A stretch of 64,000 nucleotides of DNA from Nitrosophilus labii (GTDB taxonomy: Bacteria > Campylobacterota > Campylobacteria > Campylobacterales > Nitratiruptoraceae): positions 1,674,001 to 1,738,000 of the forward strand of contig NZ_AP022826.1 in NCBI RefSeq assembly GCF_014466985.1, read 5' to 3'. The notes under the pieces were generated by a model. That model saw nothing but the letters and a program-made list of their open reading frames with translations, searched no databases and was not told the DNA's origin. Made by a program: the position numbers and the translations under genes. Position 1 is the stretch's first letter, and each line of letters starts with the position of its first letter. This document shows, piece by piece, positions 38,313 to 46,493 of the stretch.

Positions 38313-40889
38313 TTACGGTTCATAATATAAAACTACCGGCTCAGAATAGTTTGGAACATTGTCGTATGTAAAGACTGCGTAATATTTGGCGATTTTTGTG
38401 TTGCCAAAGTTATCGTAGGTGTAGTTATCTCGCCCGGCATAGAGCTTTACGCCGTCCTGTGGGTTTTTAGGCGGATGAAAACGGTTTCGAACCACATAGG
38501 CTCCTACAAAATCTTTATCTTTTGGGTTTTGCCAAGTCAATTTTACCATACCTTTTTCGATGGTGGCTTTTAAGTTTGTAACTGGACTTACGGGCATTTT
38601 TCGCTTTTTGATATACTTAATCACAAGCTTTACCACATTTGGACTATTTTTATCAAACCAATTAATGAGATGATCTTTAGCTTCGCTTGCCGGTGTTGGG
38701 TGGATAATAAATCCAACGGGTCTATTTTTGGTATGAAAGTTTTCTAATTCGATTTTACTAGCACTATCAAATAAGAAGTAGTTGGTATTCTCTTTGACAA
38801 GCTGCTCTTCACTCACTTCATAATCGATAAAACCAAGGGACTTTCTGTTTTGGATATGGGTATAATCTAACTTTTCTAAATCTACAAATTCGATCAAGTA
38901 ACGAATATCTAAAGAGCTTTTTTTGATGTTTTCATTTTTGATTTTGATAAAACTTTCAGTTATAACGCACTCATTAGCATCAGGCAAGAGAGAGAGATCA
39001 AACTCCATATATCCATAAACAATATTACCCTTTTCATCATACCCGCAAGAGAGCGTATCAAGAAGAATTTCATCTTTTTTTACGGTTGCTAGCTTCAAAG
39101 GCTCTAGCTCCACTTCAGCCGGCGGAACGGTATATTTAATATATAGATGGGGTCGGTAGTGAATCCCTCCGCCAAAAGGGCCATATCCAAGATCAAACAC
39201 CATCATCTGGCTATCTGCTCCAAGAGGAAGTTTTGTCGGCCCTTGCATTCGAAAGAGCACCTCTTTTTTCTTTAAGGCTTCTTCTAAAAGTTTTCGCTCA
39301 AAAGCGTTTAACTCCCAAGTCTTCCAGATACCTTGAGTCAATTTTTGTGAGGGAATCGTTTGTCCAAGGGTTTGAATCACTTTTGCGTTATGGATCTGAT
39401 TAAAATCGGTTATATCCTCAACATCTTCAATGATACTTATCCCCCACTCTCCATATTTTTCAATCTTTACATTAACGCGATTTAAGGGATAGAGACTTAT
39501 TTTTGCCTCTTTAATAATTGCGTTTTGGGGAATAGAGTCAAGACGAAAGCGCATTATGGCATAACTTATGCCAAGAGTTTTGTTTACGCCTACAAATAGT
39601 GAGTTTTTACCAAAGTGCTCCGGGTTTTTTTTCGATTTTTGAGCAACGTAGCCAATATCTTGCGGACATGGAAAAATGCTTCTAAAAAACTCGTCTCGCT
39701 CTAGTTTTGTCATAATTTTAAGCTGAGGAGCAAACGGCCCTTTTTGCTTTGTAAGCCTATCTACGGGACGAATATAGTAAAAATATAACTTACCGCTGGC
39801 TCTATCTTTGTCGACAAATTCCAGTTCGCTTGTGGTGGCGATAAGACTAGGTTCACGGCAAGACTCTTTATGTTTTTCATTTCGATAAATCTCAAAATAG
39901 ACGTTTGGATACTCTTCTTTATCATATTCCCATTTGAGCTTGACGCAGTTACTTTCATACTCATCTATCACAAAGTTTTCCACTCTAGCCGGTTTATTTA
40001 CTGCGTAACTATGTGCTTCGTTTAAAGCATATAGAAGAGCCGGGATATTTTCATCGATCGATTCGCTCATATTTTGCAAGTAATCTGGAATATTTCTTGT
40101 ACCAACCTCAACAACGGCCGCCAATATGCCTTTTGAGTAATAATACTCTCTTGCGCTTCCTTGAATAAGCCTAGCCGGAGGTTTTCCCCTATGAATCCCG
40201 TAGCGTCTACCAGTTACCTTTTCGATCTCATAGTTCATATTGGCACAAAGAACATTTAAATCGGTTCCTTCGATTTCGGCTTCATGGTTAAATTTGTGTG
40301 CTGGAAAAAAGACGTTGCCTTGCGAGTGATAATCTAAAGCTATCGTGATATTTGGATGAGTATCTACAAACTCTTTTATTGCTTTGGTTTCAGGCTCGCT
40401 AAAGGGCTCTGGTCCTCCATAAATATTGGAAGATGGATCTTTAGACTTTACCCAGCCAACGCTAAAGTTTCGATTTAGATCTACTCCAAAACTCCCATCA
40501 GAGTTTTTTCGTCTATTTTTTCGCCAAAAGGAGTAGTGACTGCGTGAATACTCGAAACCGTCAGGATTTAGCACGGGCACTATATAGAGCGTATTTTTCG
40601 ATAACGCGCTTATAACTCTTGGATCACTTTTATGGTTTTTTAGTAGATAATCCACAAAAGCGATTGCCAGCTCATTACCTATCCACTCTCTTGCGTGAAT
40701 CGTACCCGTGTATAGCAAAGCCGGCTTTAAATCGGCATATTCCACGTCAAGCGAAACGGTAGCCAAAATGATATCTCGATTCTCCCAAGTTTTGCCAATA
40801 ACCTGAAGTTTAATTAGATGCGGATACTCTTTGACTTTTTGTTTTAAAAACGAAATCGTCTCTTCGTAGGACTTATATTGATGTTTCAA
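38313..40889 (-). CDS. M14 zinc carboxypeptidase with FnIII and DNRLRE-like C-terminal modules
   Basis: 858 residues from the TTG at 40889, which has AAGGAGAG just upstream; the frame also opens at a TTG at 40922. The M14 catalytic domain (about 1-295) has zinc ligands His65, Glu68 (TIHAREW) and His188 (DYHSQG), VDLNRNF with Asn139-Arg140, and general base Glu261 (VVEVGTR), so it should be active. After it come an FnIII-like domain (about 300-390), two DNRLRE-like beta modules (about 405-605 and 610-765, e.g. YAIMRFRLDSIPQNAII) and a second FnIII-like domain (about 772-858). There is no signal peptide, although such modules are usually extracellular. It overlaps the ATP-grasp gene by 17 bases. 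Confidence 0.82.
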   Translation of the reverse strand: MKHQYKSYEETISFLKQKVKEYPHLIKLQVIGKTWENRDIILATVSLDVEYADLKPALLYTGTIHAREWIGNELAIAFVDYLLKNHKSDPRVISALSKNTLYIVPVLNPDGFEYSRSHYSFWRKNRRKNSDGSFGVDLNRNFSVGWVKSKDPSSNIYGGPEPFSEPETKAIKEFVDTHPNITIALDYHSQGNVFFPAHKFNHEAEIEGTDLNVLCANMNYEIEKVTGRRYGIHRGKPPARLIQGSAREYYYSKGILAAVVEVGTRNIPDYLQNMSESIDENIPALLYALNEAHSYAVNKPARVENFVIDEYESNCVKLKWEYDKEEYPNVYFEIYRNEKHKESCREPSLIATTSELEFVDKDRASGKLYFYYIRPVDRLTKQKGPFAPQLKIMTKLERDEFFRSIFPCPQDIGYVAQKSKKNPEHFGKNSLFVGVNKTLGISYAIMRFRLDSIPQNAIIKEAKISLYPLNRVNVKIEKYGEWGISIIEDVEDITDFNQIHNAKVIQTLGQTIPSQKLTQGIWKTWELNAFERKLLEEALKKKEVLFRMQGPTKLPLGADSQMMVFDLGYGPFGGGIHYRPHLYIKYTVPPAEVELEPLKLATVKKDEILLDTLSCGYDEKGNIVYGYMEFDLSLLPDANECVITESFIKIKNENIKKSSLDIRYLIEFVDLEKLDYTHIQNRKSLGFIDYEVSEEQLVKENTNYFLFDSASKIELENFHTKNRPVGFIIHPTPASEAKDHLINWFDKNSPNVVKLVIKYIKKRKMPVSPVTNLKATIEKGMVKLTWQNPKDKDFVGAYVVRNRFHPPKNPQDGVKLYAGRDNYTYDNFGNTKIAKYYAVFTYDNVPNYSEPVVLYYEP

Positions 40890-42288
40890 ATCTCTCCTTT
40901 TTAAATTCTTGCCAAGCTTCAAGCAATTTTTTTAGCGTTTTATCTTTAATTCCCTTAATTTCTAGTAAAGCATCGGGATTATTATCTAGTTCGTAAGATA
41001 TATTAAACGCGTCAATCTGCTCTAACACTTTTTTTGCCTTTTTGCCAAGTGTATTATGTAAAAACTCTTTAATCTCCTCTTCGCTTAAAACTACAGGCTG
41101 TTCGTCGCTTGGCTCTTCAAAACTATGTTCTTCGTTTGATATTTTCTTCTCTTTTTTCTCACTCTTTCCCCAAAAATTTTTACACTTTTTAGTAAAATCC
41201 CACTTTTCGCTTGGCCACTCTTCATAGTCTCTCTCTTCGGTATTTAACATCGGATACTCTTCGTCAAGTTCCCAAATCTTATGCACTGCTCCACTCTCAT
41301 CCATCTTTTGCCTATTTAAAAAGTACTCTCCGTCAAAGCTAGGAGTATAGCGTCCAAAGGTGATAAAGCGCATCGTACGAAGAAGGGAGCTATCGATTTT
41401 GCCAAGCTCCTCCCAGTTATAGACGGGTATATTTGGCTTAGGAAATCTTCCGTCGCTTAGCTTCCACATTAGATACTGTCCAATCCAGTCTCTTATATAA
41501 GGAAAGGCAGCAAATGCAGTAGCACACTCTAAGATACGATATTTTCCATCCTCTTTACCTACGGCTATATCGCATGCCCAATATTCCGCATTGGCTGCTT
41601 TACTAACTTTGACGGCTAGATCCAACACCCCTTTGGGCACGTTCATATAATCTATACTTCCTCCTTGAGAGGTATTGGTAAGCCAGTGTCCTTCTGGCGG
41701 CCTTCTCCAAAAAGCACAAACTGGTTTATGGCCAATCAGCATCACTCTTATATCGGCACTCATCGGCACAAAATCTTGTATATAGATTGGACAATACTTT
41801 TTTGCTTCTAAAAGCTTTTTAGCCTCCTCAAAGCTATCTACTTTATGTACAAAATAGCCTCCATAATTGCTTGGGCCATAGCTTCGTTTTATGATTTTAG
41901 GATAAGTTGTTTTTTCTAAAAATGCCATTCCCTCATCTTTATCGTAAAATATATAGGTTTTTGGAACGGGAATATCATATTTCCAGCAAAATCTTGTAAC
42001 ATTTTCTTTTGATTTATTGGCAAATTGGCTATCAAGCGATGGAATAAATTTTACGTTTGGAAGTTCTCTTGCAATCTTTCTAAAAGTCTCATAGGCAGTT
42101 GCTGGAATATTTCCTATTAAAACGTCTATTTTTTTCTTTTTAACCTCTTTTATAAAACGCTTCTCATCACCCTCCCAATGATAAATTACTGTTTCGATTT
42201 TATCCGGCCAACCTTTGAAATTGCTTCTGTCAAAAAATCGCAAAACATAATCTAGATATAAAAGCCCGATTTTTGGTAGTTTTTTCAT
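40873..42288 (-). CDS. RimK-clade ATP-grasp ligase with C-terminal HhH-like tail
   Basis: 471 residues. An ATP-grasp amide/peptide ligase core (about 1-330) shows YPKIIKRSYGPSNYGGY, SADIRVMLIGHKPVCAFWRR and WLTNTSQGG, matching the RimK layout. The usual metal-binding E-X-N is LECATAF: Glu254 is present but Asn is replaced by Ala256. An aromatic and acidic region (about 330-400) follows, then a helical tail with an HhH-like element (about 438-462, LLEIKGIKDKTLKKLLEAW). Substrate and product are unknown. The ATG overlaps the stop of the second ATP-grasp gene (ATGA), so the two ligases are co-translated and followed by the M14 gene. Confidence 0.82.
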   Translation of the reverse strand: MKKLPKIGLLYLDYVLRFFDRSNFKGWPDKIETVIYHWEGDEKRFIKEVKKKKIDVLIGNIPATAYETFRKIARELPNVKFIPSLDSQFANKSKENVTRFCWKYDIPVPKTYIFYDKDEGMAFLEKTTYPKIIKRSYGPSNYGGYFVHKVDSFEEAKKLLEAKKYCPIYIQDFVPMSADIRVMLIGHKPVCAFWRRPPEGHWLTNTSQGGSIDYMNVPKGVLDLAVKVSKAANAEYWACDIAVGKEDGKYRILECATAFAAFPYIRDWIGQYLMWKLSDGRFPKPNIPVYNWEELGKIDSSLLRTMRFITFGRYTPSFDGEYFLNRQKMDESGAVHKIWELDEEYPMLNTEERDYEEWPSEKWDFTKKCKNFWGKSEKKEKKISNEEHSFEEPSDEQPVVLSEEEIKEFLHNTLGKKAKKVLEQIDAFNISYELDNNPDALLEIKGIKDKTLKKLLEAWQEFKKERFETSI

Positions 42289-43187
42289 CTGTTATCCTTT
42301 AGTTTTTTCTCCATCAATTCTACAATTTTCTCAATCTTTTTATCGTTAAAATCAAGTCCCATTTTTTCTTGTTCCGGTGTGGCAAAAGCCGGGATCCCGT
42401 TAACTTCTAACACTACATACTCTTCATGTTCTCTATCGTAGATGATATCTACTCCGGCAATCTCTATACCTATCGAGCGTGCCGCTTTTTGAGCTAGTTC
42501 TATCACTTCATCTTCACACTCTCTTAAAACTACTCTGCCCCCGCTTGTTACATTCGTTCGCCAATCTCCCTCTTTTGCTTTTCTACCATAACATGCGATA
42601 AACTCTCCATCAACCAAATCTACCCTAAAATCGCTTCCGTCATAATCGATAAACTTTTCGATATAAAAAAATCTTAGATCCGTTTGATTTAAAAAGGGTA
42701 AAATCATATCAAGCTTATCTTTGCTATCTACAAGCGCCATACCTATACCGCCCCATCCATCGACGGTCTTAAAAACAGCTTTGCCCCACTCCAATACCTT
42801 ATTGCGAATAGTTTCTACATCTTCTCTATGGCATAAGAAATATTCGGCCGTTCTTATACCTGCTTTTCGTAAAAGATCGTTTGTTTTAAACTTATCTTCG
42901 CTTATATTGAAAGCTTGAAAACTATTGATGCAAGGCACATGTTTATCTAGAGCTTCATAAAGATAGACTTGATATTTCGTCTGTTCACCGGCGTTATAGC
43001 TAAAAAAACAATCAAGTTCATACAAGTTAAGCCCATTGAGTAAAATTTTTCCGTTTTCTGAAATCGCTTGACGAAGATTTAGTCCGGTTGAGACGATATG
43101 CCCTCGCTCTTGAAGTTTTGCAATAAGTTTTTTTTCAATCAAATCCCCACCGCCGTTTTGATACATCCAAATACCGATATGTGCCAT
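42285..43187 (-). CDS. RimK/LysX-type ATP-grasp ligase
   Basis: 300 residues. ATP-grasp ligase of the RimK (alpha-L-glutamate ligase)/LysX/MptN type. It has AVFKTVDGWGGIGMALV (about 137-153), SDFRVDLVDGEFIACYGRK (about 185-203), DWRTNVTSGG and an intact metal-binding Glu261-Val-Asn263 in VVLEVNGIPAF. Family members add an amino acid, most often glutamate, to a carboxylate of a protein, peptide or cofactor. First gene of the ligase-ligase-M14 operon. ATG with AAAGGA upstream. The acceptor cannot be read from sequence. Confidence 0.87.
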   Translation of the reverse strand: MAHIGIWMYQNGGGDLIEKKLIAKLQERGHIVSTGLNLRQAISENGKILLNGLNLYELDCFFSYNAGEQTKYQVYLYEALDKHVPCINSFQAFNISEDKFKTNDLLRKAGIRTAEYFLCHREDVETIRNKVLEWGKAVFKTVDGWGGIGMALVDSKDKLDMILPFLNQTDLRFFYIEKFIDYDGSDFRVDLVDGEFIACYGRKAKEGDWRTNVTSGGRVVLRECEDEVIELAQKAARSIGIEIAGVDIIYDREHEEYVVLEVNGIPAFATPEQEKMGLDFNDKKIEKIVELMEKKLKDNR

Positions 43188-43212
43188 AGTAGTCCTTTAA
43201 GAGGATTTAGTC

Positions 43213-43218
43213 TATAAT
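43213..43218 (+). promoter_or_regulatory. Putative -10 box for the M20 peptidase gene
   Basis: A perfect TATAAT lies in the 60-base divergent spacer, 30 bases before the M20 start, and would give a short leader. The oppositely oriented ligase operon must be promoted from the same spacer, so the two sides may be co-regulated. Confidence 0.5.
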
Positions 43219-43247
43219 ACAAAAAAATTGATAAAAAGGCTTTGAAA

Positions 43248-44330
43248 ATGTATGATTTTAGTGAACTTGCCGAACTTATCAACATCAACTCCTATACCAA
43301 AAATAAAGTGGGCGTTGATGAAAATGGTTCCCTTATGCGCCAAAAGTTTGAAGCTTTAGGATACAAAACAAAAGTTTTTGAAAGAAAAGATTTTGGCAAT
43401 CACCTCTATTTTACAAGCCTAAAAAAAGAAGGCCCAAAAATGCTACTTTTGGGGCACTTAGACACCGTCTTTCCACCAGGAACCTTTGAGGGATTTAAAG
43501 ATGACGAAGAGTGGATTTACGGGCCTGGAGTTTGCGATATGAAAGGCGGAAATATGGTAATGGTAGAGGCTTTAAGGGCGCAAGAAAAGATTTTTAATAT
43601 CGATATTTTTTTAGTAAGCGACGAAGAGATAGGTAGTGATGACTCAAGAGAGTTTACAAAAGAGATTGCCAAAAATTACGAGTATTGCTTAGTTTTTGAA
43701 GCGGCCGGCAAAAATGATGAAATAGTAGTGGCCAGAAAAGGGATTGGCACATTTTACGTAGATATCGAAGGAAAAGCCGCGCACGCTGGAAACTGCTATA
43801 GTGATGGAATTGACGCAAATTTAGAAGCTGCGCATAAGCTCATATCTTTTAGCCATTTAACCAATCTTAGCAAAGGAACAACGGTTAACGTTGGAAAAAT
43901 GGAAGGTGGTATTGGAGCTAATACCATCAGTCCACAAGCTAGACTCATTTTAGAGGCTAGGTTTACAACACAAAGTGAAAGAGATCGAGTCTTAGCTGAA
44001 ATTACAGAAATCGTAAATAGTTCGTACGTATTAGGAAGCAGAGCGATTTTGAGCGGAGGCTTACAACGGGATGTGATGGAAGAGAACGAAGCACAGCTTT
44101 TATTTATCAAAAAACTTGAAAAATGGAGTAAACAGAGACTTCTTACCGAAAAACGAGGCGGCGGGAGTGATGCAAATATTGCCGCAAGTGTTGGAGCTAT
44201 TACTCTTGATGGTTTTGGCCCGTATGGCGACGGAGATCACACTATCCATGAAAGGGCGAGTAAAAAAAGCTTTATAAACAGGATTGAGCTAGTTAGTAAG
44301 ATATTTAAAGGTTTTATGGACGAACTATAA
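43248..44330 (+). CDS. M20 metallopeptidase, carboxypeptidase G2 (glutamate carboxypeptidase)-like
   Basis: 360 residues from the ATG at 43248; a TTG two codons upstream is possible. M20 zinc peptidase with ligands in LLLGHLDTVFPPGTF (His70, Asp72), GVCDMKGG (Asp98) and SDEEIGS (catalytic Glu126, zinc Glu127), plus the C-terminal His in DGDHTIHERAS. KAAHAGNCYSDGIDAN marks the dimerisation-domain side. The HLDTVFPPGTF form is that of carboxypeptidase G2, which removes C-terminal glutamate. There is no signal peptide, so it is likely cytoplasmic. Divergent from the two ligases and M14, it may hydrolyse what they make. Confidence 0.87.
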   Translation: MYDFSELAELININSYTKNKVGVDENGSLMRQKFEALGYKTKVFERKDFGNHLYFTSLKKEGPKMLLLGHLDTVFPPGTFEGFKDDEEWIYGPGVCDMKGGNMVMVEALRAQEKIFNIDIFLVSDEEIGSDDSREFTKEIAKNYEYCLVFEAAGKNDEIVVARKGIGTFYVDIEGKAAHAGNCYSDGIDANLEAAHKLISFSHLTNLSKGTTVNVGKMEGGIGANTISPQARLILEARFTTQSERDRVLAEITEIVNSSYVLGSRAILSGGLQRDVMEENEAQLLFIKKLEKWSKQRLLTEKRGGGSDANIAASVGAITLDGFGPYGDGDHTIHERASKKSFINRIELVSKIFKGFMDEL

Positions 44331-44370: not shown

Positions 44371-44883
44371 TTATTTTAATTTTGAGATATATTGGGATAA
44401 AGCTTCAATCTCCTCATCACTACTATTTTTAACTTGAGAACTCATCAAACTACCCATGCCATATTTATTAAGTTTTCCGGCTCTATACTCTTTTAAGATC
44501 CCAACAAGCTCCTCTATAGCCATTCCGCCTATAGGAAGAGATTTTCCTAGTGCCCTTTTCTCACCACTTTTGCCGTGACACCCTGCACATTTAGCGTACA
44601 ATTTAGCACCGTCTATGTCTGTTTTGCTCTCTGTACTATTCTCTTTGGTACTACTTTCAGCAGCTTTTTCAACATCTCTCTTTTCATCCAATTTATCTAT
44701 CTTTGTATAACTCTCTTTACCCTTACTTTCTAGTTTTATATCATTTTCAGAACTATTTGTCGTTACTTTCGATTGCTCTTTGGTTTGGACTTTTGATAGA
44801 CTATTTTTCTCCTCAGGTTTTTGAGAACAGCCGACTATCAAAAAAATTGACACTATAGCAAAAAGCCATAAAATTTTTCTCAT
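44371..44883 (-). CDS. Monoheme cytochrome c lipoprotein
   Basis: 170 residues. Lipoprotein signal with lipobox LIVGC (Cys19), a long charged Ser/Lys/Glu linker (about 20-88), then a class I cytochrome c domain with the heme site CAGCH (Cys99-Cys102-His103) and a Met-rich ligand region (GMGSLMSSQV). It should be membrane-tethered and carry electrons in the periplasm. C. jejuni, as I recall, has a heme-binding lipoprotein (Cj0158c) beside its queD gene, as here. Confidence 0.88.
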   Translation of the reverse strand: MRKILWLFAIVSIFLIVGCSQKPEEKNSLSKVQTKEQSKVTTNSSENDIKLESKGKESYTKIDKLDEKRDVEKAAESSTKENSTESKTDIDGAKLYAKCAGCHGKSGEKRALGKSLPIGGMAIEELVGILKEYRAGKLNKYGMGSLMSSQVKNSSDEEIEALSQYISKLK

Positions 44884-44892
44884 AATCTCCCC

Positions 44893-45474
44893 TTAAACGA
44901 TTTTTGGATTTTCAATCTTTTCACCTCTAAGAAGTCTCTCCCAAATAAACGGATCGCTCCACTCTTCTATAACTCCAGAAGAGAACTTAACTTTACTTAA
45001 ATCTATAAAACCCATCTTTTCACTATAAGCATCCGCACGGTCGCATCTTGCATATCCGGTATCCGTTTCATGAACAATTACGCTATCAATGCACACATTA
45101 TTCTCTTCATTTACCATTATAGTCTGATTTAAAATTTTATCAACAATTAGAAAAAATAGTCTACTAAACTGCTCGGCACTTGGATTTACCGGGATCTCCA
45201 CCCACCTTTGACTCCATTTTTTCATATCTTTAAGATACTGAGGATCATCGCCACTCCAAAGAGTTATAGCGTGATCGAAAGAATCAATAAGCTCCTTTAT
45301 GGTAAGTTTGGTAAGACCAAAATCGTAAACCATCTCTCCTCTATCTAGTGAGTCAGATCTAAAAAAGAGTTCAACTTTATAAGAGTGACCATGAATACTC
45401 TGGCTACATCTCTTAGAAGTACAGTTTCTAACTATATGAGCGTTCTCAAATTTAAAAAGTTTTCTAATAAGCAA
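44893..45474 (-). CDS. queD: 6-carboxytetrahydropterin synthase (QueD)
   Basis: 193 residues from the TTG at 45474, chosen because AAGGAGAGG lies about nine bases ahead and the product MLIRKLFKFENAHI matches other Campylobacterota QueD starts. The frame opens back into queE. Zinc histidines are in FENAHI and SIHGHSY (His13, His28, His30). MVYDFGLTKLTIKEL and SAEQFSRLFF are PTPS/QueD signatures. It converts dihydroneopterin triphosphate to carboxytetrahydropterin in queuosine synthesis, followed by QueE, whose gene is immediately upstream. Confidence 0.9.
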   Translation of the reverse strand: MLIRKLFKFENAHIVRNCTSKRCSQSIHGHSYKVELFFRSDSLDRGEMVYDFGLTKLTIKELIDSFDHAITLWSGDDPQYLKDMKKWSQRWVEIPVNPSAEQFSRLFFLIVDKILNQTIMVNEENNVCIDSVIVHETDTGYARCDRADAYSEKMGFIDLSKVKFSSGVIEEWSDPFIWERLLRGEKIENPKIV

Positions 45475-45499
45475 CTTCAACCTCTCCTTAGCTACCAAA

Positions 45500-46258
45500 C
45501 TATCTTTTTTTCTCTCTGTTCCAAAGCCTAACGTGGAGTCTATCGCTATAAATAAATCCATAAATCAAACAAAACTCTGCAACAGCTTTATCATGCTTTT
45601 TAATTATATCTTGTTTATCGCCAAGAGGCATACAGAAAATCTCTGCTTCAGGATAAGGTTCTACTATATCCACTATCTCCTCAAACGCTCTTCTTTCAAT
45701 AATACCTCTATCCAAAGTAAACTTAAAAAAGGAGTAAGAGGTGTTGTTTATATACTCCTTTATAACCTCTTTATTTACCCTTTTATCGTAAGGCTCGCCG
45801 CTATTGCTAAGTTTAACAGCCATAGCAAATATAACGTCTTTATAAGCTGAAAATTTTTCAATATCTACTTTTATAGTTGCATTAGTTTCGATAGTAACGA
45901 TAAAATCGTTATTAACTAAATATTGAATGAATTTATAAAAAATGGAATCTGTCGCATAGATCATAGGTTCTCCACCAGTGATAACTATGTGAGGCTTAAA
46001 GTCAAGATTTTCGATATAGTCGTCCAATATCTCTATCAAAACTTTTTCGTTCTCTATCCTTTTCCACTCATTTTGAAAGATCTCCTTATTTACCGCTCTT
46101 ACAGTATCACAGCCATAAACAATTTTACCTTTTACAAAATATTCTCCAAAATCTTGGCATCTTAGATTACATCCGCCAAATCTAAAAAAAACGCTTGGAG
46201 TACCTACAAATTTGCCCTCGCCTTGGATAGAATAAAAGTGTTCAACAAGATAAACCAT
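45500..46258 (-). CDS. queE: 7-carboxy-7-deazaguanine synthase (QueE), variant cysteine spacing
   Basis: 252 residues from the ATG at 46258 (AAAGGAAAT upstream). The frame runs back to 46324, but that part is translated intergenic repeat. Radical SAM enzyme of the queuosine pathway. SIQGEGKFVGTPSVFFRFGG and ITGGEPMIY are QueE hallmarks. The cluster motif is unusual: Cys30-X3-Cys34 is not followed by a cysteine two residues later (Phe37 there), and the next cysteine is Cys50 in YGCDTVRAV. Other Campylobacterota QueE proteins may share this. The stop is followed within 25 bases by queD. Confidence 0.88.
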   Translation of the reverse strand: MVYLVEHFYSIQGEGKFVGTPSVFFRFGGCNLRCQDFGEYFVKGKIVYGCDTVRAVNKEIFQNEWKRIENEKVLIEILDDYIENLDFKPHIVITGGEPMIYATDSIFYKFIQYLVNNDFIVTIETNATIKVDIEKFSAYKDVIFAMAVKLSNSGEPYDKRVNKEVIKEYINNTSYSFFKFTLDRGIIERRAFEEIVDIVEPYPEAEIFCMPLGDKQDIIKKHDKAVAEFCLIYGFIYSDRLHVRLWNREKKR

Positions 46259-46261
46259 TAA

Positions 46262-46493
46262 TTTCCTTTTTTGGAATTGGGCATTTGGAATTGGGAAATG
46301 GGAATTAGGAAATAGTAAATTCAAATAGTCATTAAGCCATTAGTCATTAAGTCATTAAGGATAATTTTTCCTAATGACCAATTACAAGTCAATTTTATAT
46401 TCTTAAAAGTTTCAAAAATTGTTAAATTTTTAAAATGTTTTGAATAAACGAAACTTAATGACTAATGACACTAATTCCTAATTCCTAATTCAA
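46262..46493. repeat. Large nested word-repeat inverted structure between moaA and queE
   Basis: The outer left arm is made of GGAATTGGGAAATGGGAATTAGG-like words and the outer right arm of the complement CTAATTCCTAATTCCTAATTC. A second nested pair uses the word CATTAAGTCATTAGT on the left and CTTAATGACTAATGACACTAA on the right. It lies in a same-strand run and would be transcribed as a long hairpin. Its left edge creates a false in-frame N-terminal extension of queE. Confidence 0.75.

Follow-up and report, generated by a model that had tools for sequence, protein, structure and literature searches.

That acidic amino acids can be added reversibly is well established for tubulin, where in eukaryotes an ATP-grasp ligase of the TTLL type acts as the writer of glutamate and an M14 cytosolic carboxypeptidase (CCP) as the eraser of acidic residues. 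A bacterial glutamate writer/eraser is also established, namely RimK/RimB (RimABK) of Pseudomonas, which acts in the polyglutamylation of ribosomal protein S6; here too an ATP-grasp ligase and a protease that undoes its work are cytosolic and are encoded together (PMC7343187, PMC12239564). In the RloABC operon of Pseudomonas aeruginosa, a protease that cleaves polyglutamate likewise accompanies an ATP-grasp protein (PMC12239564). Here, we describe a cassette of four genes from Nitrosophilus labii, located in a stretch of 64 kb (the window) out of a genome of 2.09 Mb, the close relatives of which are named Nitratiruptor. The cassette encodes two ATP-grasp ligases, labelled AG1 and AG2, and two peptidases, labelled M14 and M20. 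The four genes form one heritable unit, which is gained and lost as a block. Overall, the cassette probably writes and erases a terminal acidic residue, since the relatives of the ligases use acidic amino acids and the M14 carries a residue specific for acidic substrates, these being two independent lines of sequence evidence.

Organisation of the cassette

M20 (43248..44330, forward strand) encodes a carboxypeptidase G2-like M20 peptidase of 360 aa, matching Pfam Peptidase_M20 and M20_dimer. A spacer of about 60 bases (43188..43247), recognised from the sequence, separates it from the divergent start of AG1 (42285..43187, reverse strand), a RimK/MptN-like ATP-grasp ligase of 300 aa (Pfam RimK, 2e-24). 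On the same strand as AG1 is AG2 (40873..42288, reverse strand), a divergent ATP-grasp ligase of 471 aa (Pfam RimK, 6e-14), the two genes overlapping in an ATGA at 42285-42288. The fourth gene, M14 (38313..40889, reverse strand), encodes an M14A-type carboxypeptidase of 858 aa (Pfam Peptidase_M14, 2.1e-56). It starts with a TTG at 40889, 17 bases inside AG2, which agrees with the family start MKxQYxSY in relatives; an alternative TTG upstream, at 40922, would give a protein of 869 aa. M20 has candidate starts at 43242 and 43248, of which the ATG at 43248 is favoured by the relatives. The four reading frames, both overlaps and the family assignments had been proposed in the initial annotation of this DNA, and are borne out by the open reading frames and the Pfam matches.

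Conservation of the four genes as a unit

Relatives of AG2 were found in the best 80 genome loci. These belong mostly to Campylobacterota (Nitratiruptor, Sulfurovum, Sulfurimonas and Arcobacter-like bacteria), and also to Veronia and Pseudoalteromonas. The order M20-AG1-AG2-M14 is kept in most of these roughly 80 loci, in Campylobacterota as well as in Vibrionaceae/Pseudoalteromonas, and in nearly all loci of sufficient length the four genes adjoin one another, with outer neighbours that vary by lineage. The genes are closely packed, the median gaps being 6.5 bases between AG1 and AG2 and 33 bases between AG2 and M14. It had been suggested that the divergent spacer in the window reflects co-regulation. 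This is not a general feature, because the orientation of M20 varies: it is divergent in the window and co-directional in several other lineages.

Of 347 genomes of Campylobacterota, 44 have AG2, 44 have M14 and 43 have AG1, with all three present in 42. Linkage beyond this strain, also in Vibrionaceae/Pseudoalteromonas, is confirmed, and greatly exceeds what chance would give. The co-occurrence of AG2 and M14 has a naive overlap P of ~1e-52, without correction for shared descent. Four genomes are exceptions to the co-occurrence of AG1, AG2 and M14: one has a remnant of AG2 with stop codons (G450), one has M14 alone (G656), in one AG1 was not found (G619), and in one AG1 and M20 lie on a contig of 4.2 kb (G030). 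In the campylobacterotal genus g19 (five genomes: G740, G532, G730, G037 and G717; loci L169, L172, L173 and L236-L240), AG2 is located elsewhere in the chromosome, while M20, AG1 and M14 are still together. Given that g19 keeps AG2 although it is unlinked, the connection within the cassette is functional and not merely positional.

The cassette can also be seen to come and go as a block. In genomes G009 and G003 it sits between an HtpX-like and a PurL-like gene, and these two genes are also found, without the cassette, in G007, G008, G017, G014 and G004. At the empty site of G007, a close relative, the stretch that is absent consists of exactly the four cassette genes and nothing else. The peptidase families of M14 and M20 are both common, and it could be argued that peptide-scavenging peptidases have come to lie beside unrelated ligases by chance. 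This explanation is scarcely credible, being refuted by the comparative data, that is, by the co-occurrence, the retention of an unlinked AG2 and the exact empty site.

Pairwise distances among the four proteins are correlated (r 0.63-0.89), and in the tree the copies from Gammaproteobacteria fall into a single, fully supported clade. AG2 is present in 28 of 198 Vibrionaceae genomes, and in 1 of 369 genomes of a broad gammaproteobacterial sample. The cassette is an accessory system, most likely with at least one transfer between phyla behind it; as the tree was rooted at its midpoint, the direction of transfer cannot be read from it. The carriers are bacteria of vents and of sulfidic and marine habitats, together with Vibrionaceae. 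A role as phage or plasmid cargo was rejected: no relative was found in IMG/VR, and the plasmid collection held a single record with a full-length relative, this being a Photobacterium replicon of 2.1 Mb. Anti-phage defence was likewise rejected, as the PADLOC models gave no match.

Two Vibrionaceae genomes have a second cassette (L136 on contig 12 of G061, and L138 on contig 63 of G750), in which AG2 and M14 are each split into two frames, which suggests either decay of an extra copy or frameshifts. Three genes away from the cassette in G009 there is an aspartoacylase/AstE-like gene (positions 4950-5813 of L175, with the motif GGVHGNELTG); it is regarded as a neighbour only, because cassette-free relatives have it too. 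In the window, the cassette is followed at 44371-46324 by genes for a cytochrome c-like lipoprotein, QueD and a QueE-like protein. Among the genome-contig loci compared, the lipoprotein and QueD genes adjoin the cassette only in the nearest relative (L026).

The two peptidases

The catalytic domain of M14 comprises approximately residues 1-295. Its residues equivalent to H69, R71, E72, R127, N144, R145, H196 and E270 (bovine carboxypeptidase A (CPA) numbering) are invariant in 97 of 97 relatives, and it therefore has the complete M14A set, consisting of the zinc ligands H69, E72 and H196, the residues R127, N144 and R145, and E270. The earlier statement that the zinc ligands are intact is therefore correct, and holds throughout the family. 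The landmark positions of the bovine CPA sequence used as reference were checked and agree. The AlphaFold model of M14 has a mean pLDDT of 81, with the catalytic loops modelled poorly, and its fold matches are CPT, CPB, CPA and carboxypeptidase O (CPO).

R247 of M14 corresponds to CPA position 255, and is an Arg in all 97 family members; in a small control set of other gammaproteobacterial M14A-like sequences, none of seven has the equivalent Arg. Position 255 governs the C-terminal preference of these enzymes: CPA prefers hydrophobic residues, CPB has an Asp, and CPO has an Arg and takes acidic residues (PMC9925722). On this residue, M14 of the cassette is predicted to prefer acidic C-termini in the manner of CPO. 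It should be cytosolic, since the domain begins at residue 1 and no hydrophobic N-terminus or signal peptide is present in the 105 M14 copies examined. The remaining ~560 residues form β-sandwiches in the model (Fn3-like and DNRLRE-like, the DNRLRE match being weak). It is worth adding that DNRLRE-type and Fn3-like sandwiches (38313-39960 in the window) are typical of secreted proteins, and are found here on an M14 that has no export signal. Searched alone against the PDB, the C-terminal half of the catalytic domain of M14 matched ETS domains, which were dismissed as noise.

For M20, the best solved homologue is carboxypeptidase G2 (CPG2; 1cg2, 2.6e-43). In the alignment of the two, the metal ligands, the catalytic Glu and the positions of H229, N275 and R324 of CPG2 are all kept. 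The matching residues of M20 are H72, D99, E128/E129, E153, H181, N227 and R276, which are invariant among its relatives. The likeness to CPG2 put forward in the initial annotation is thus upheld by the homologue, and not by the motif HLDTVFPPGTF on which it had been based: CPG2 has HMDTVYLKGIL at this place, and H-x-D-T is general among M20 peptidases, so that the motif alone is no signature of CPG2.

The two ligases

The ligases nearest to AG1 and AG2 are RimK, MptN, CofF, ArgX and LysX. The amino acid donor is glutamate for RimK, MptN, CofF and ArgX, and aminoadipate for LysX. AG1 keeps all seven ATP, metal and catalytic positions of RimK (K141, E178, R189, N213, D248, E260 and N262), as K140, E177, R188, N212, D247, E261 and N263, and these are invariant in 104 of 104 sequences. 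Residues 88-284 of the RimK reference sequence were checked against a RimK chain. The alignment of the N-terminal half is unreliable, and no counterparts of the RimK acceptor residues S7, R8 and R64 can be assigned in AG1 or AG2.

The initial annotation had left room for the ligases to belong to known pathways. The cut-off of no NCBIfam model is reached; the closest approach is to TIGR00768 (RimK subfamily), for which AG1 scores 137.6 bits against a cut-off of 143.4. Other scores of AG1 are further away, at 69.3 for NF007764 (cut-off 331), 62.8 for CofF (cut-off 300) and 136.9 for MptN (cut-off 350). None of the cassette proteins reaches the equivalog cut-offs for F420, H4MPT, LysX or RimK, and an identity as an enzyme of the F420, H4MPT or lysine pathways was rejected on these scores.

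AG2 consists of a conserved core of ~330 residues and a variable acidic tail beyond approximately residue 365; one Vibrionaceae AG2 has no tail (open frame of 368 aa). In the window, the tail (40873-41200) has a weak helix-hairpin-helix end (HHH_5, E 0.018), which resembles the C-termini of unrelated proteins of 750-830 aa in other genomes. Within the core, K134, R181, N205 and D240 are invariant, and the position of RimK E178 is mostly Asp. The EVN motif is replaced by ECA: a gapless comparison of AG2 (D240...E254-C-A256) with AG1 (D247...E261-V-N263) places an Ala at the third metal ligand, and A256 is invariant where an Asn ligand of Mg is usual. It could be proposed on this basis, and from the variable acidic tail, that AG2 is not a ligase but a subunit of AG1 with a regulatory or substrate-holding role, giving one writer and two erasers; the few bases that separate AG1 and AG2 would fit such a subunit. 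We regard this as distinctly unlikely. The Lys, Arg, Asn and Asp that bind ATP do not vary, nor do the first two metal ligands, and g19 encodes AG2 far from AG1. Moreover, PurK-type enzymes have E-x-A at this site and yet work, and AG2 therefore need not be dead.

The search for an acceptor

The best fold match of the AG2 model (of modest quality, pLDDT 69) is ArgX complexed with LysW (3vpb). This raises a further explanation, that an amino acid is attached by the ligases to a small carrier protein and set free again by the hydrolases. LysX/ArgX and LysK act on LysW in this way: an acidic amino acid is added by the ligase, which has the RimK fold, and LysK, an M20-family hydrolase, frees the product. 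However, LysW was found in none of 10 cassette genomes, although the positive controls matched, and LysW was rejected as the carrier. The cassette is also without an amino-acid-modifying enzyme. No small acceptor reading frame is conserved across lineages in the gaps or in the 600-base flanks of the cassette, in agreement with what had been noted for the window itself, and the small-frame matches that are shared turned out to be unremarkable neighbouring genes, antisense frames or fragments of AG1. A carrier is accordingly very unlikely.

A protein could alternatively be modified at a tail. AG1 and AG2 would add Glu (or Asp) to a cytosolic protein, at its C-terminus or on a side chain, M14 would trim the addition and M20 would finish, in analogy to RimK/RimB or to tubulin TTLL/CCP. 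The presence of RimK-type ligases next to a predicted acid-specific cytosolic M14 is consistent with this, and the large β-sandwich region of M14 could, judging by its modelled form, dock a protein. There is also the bacterial precedent of RimK/RimB, for which a further protease with a 'reset' role had to be postulated (PMC7343187). On the other hand, no acceptor gene accompanies the cassette, and residues R8 and R64, with which RimK binds its acceptor, are not reliably alignable in AG1. Ribosomal protein S6, the known target of RimK, was rejected: in a survey of 30 sequences, of which 26 were usable (G000, G002, G005 and G022 were left out, with the S6 of the window among those not covered), the C-termini do not track the cassette, and identical tails are found in G007, which is without it, and G009, which has it. 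Modification of a protein tail is thus unlikely, if less so than a carrier, and a small metabolite is favoured over it. Since hosts in two phyla retain the cassette with neither an acceptor gene nor LysW, the acceptor would be something that all hosts make.

A possible function

The reading that we favour, tentatively and at somewhat short of an even chance, is a closed cytosolic cycle of ligation and hydrolysis on a small peptide-like metabolite. AG1 and then AG2 would use ATP to join amino acids to the carboxylate of a small acceptor made by all hosts, the final residue being acidic (Glu or Asp). M14 would then strip the terminal acidic residue, and M20 would hydrolyse the inner amide bond, so that the product could be both built and dismantled. 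This would pair M14 with AG2, and M20 with AG1. The acidic donor, and a common metabolite and not a protein as the acceptor, are likewise suppositions of this scheme.

Several observations weigh against this cycle. M14 has no Tyr248 (the position is variable, mostly Lys, Asn or Ala) and has Gln at 198, and its kinetics or its substrate may therefore differ. Its β-sandwich region of ~560 residues suggests a large partner, and would fit a protein or a polymer better than a metabolite. AG2, being without the Asn metal ligand, may be non-catalytic. In M20, there is no counterpart of Lys208 of CPG2, where the alignment has a gap; this Lys lies near the glutamate side chain. Finally, expressing hydrolases together with ligases would serve no purpose without regulation, and no regulator gene accompanies the cassette.

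Comparison with known systems

No name for the cassette was found above the curated cut-offs in Pfam, NCBIfam, PHROGs or PADLOC, nor in the open-access literature searched (Iyer et al. 2009, on amidoligases, where any previous listing would be most likely, lies outside that scope), and the impression that no named operon has this composition is therefore maintained. The initial annotation had also read the genes as a writer/eraser set for glutamate or another amino acid. The acidic part of that reading is supported by the Arg at position 255 in every M14 and by the RimK/ArgX-group ligases; the writing and erasing of glutamate in bacteria is not in itself novel, RimK/RimB being an established case (PMC7343187).

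RimK/RimB is the nearest precedent, with an unrelated protease. It has one ligase, and RimB is a retropepsin-like aspartic protease, whereas the cassette has two ligases and two metallopeptidase-family proteins; moreover, AG1 falls under the RimK cut-off and S6 is not implicated. In RloABC, RloA is secreted and retropepsin-like, and there is a membrane transglutaminase-like partner, which is absent from the cassette. The LysX/ArgX-LysW-LysK pathway differs in its LysW and modifying enzymes, which the cassette does not have, and in having no M14. The osmolyte N-acetylglutaminylglutamine amide (NAGGN) is a small peptide made by a trio, in which an ATP-grasp ligase shares an operon with a peptidase. 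The trio requires an M42 peptidase, a GNAT fusion and an asparagine-synthetase-like protein, and the cassette has none of these.

Among M14 enzymes, CPO (M14A) shares with the cassette the Arg at CPA position 255, which in CPO goes with a preference for acidic C-termini (PMC9925722). CPO comes from animals and carries an export signal, while the cassette M14 is predicted to be cytosolic, has the additional β-sandwich region and is without Tyr248. Compared with TTLL/CCP, the cassette M14 is of the CPA/CPB/CPT type (HAREW), its solved matches being CPT, CPA, CPB and CPO and not the CCP subfamily, and no tubulin is involved. The chances are about even that the cassette carries out reversible glutamylation or aspartylation, with a dedicated acid-specific M14 as eraser, the acceptor being either a protein of the cell or a universal metabolite, and is in this sense a bacterial counterpart of TTLL/CCP, passed from phylum to phylum as a block of four genes. 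If so, it would be a second bacterial system for the reversible addition of acidic residues, and one that is built differently from RimK/RimB, from two ligases and two metallopeptidase-family enzymes.

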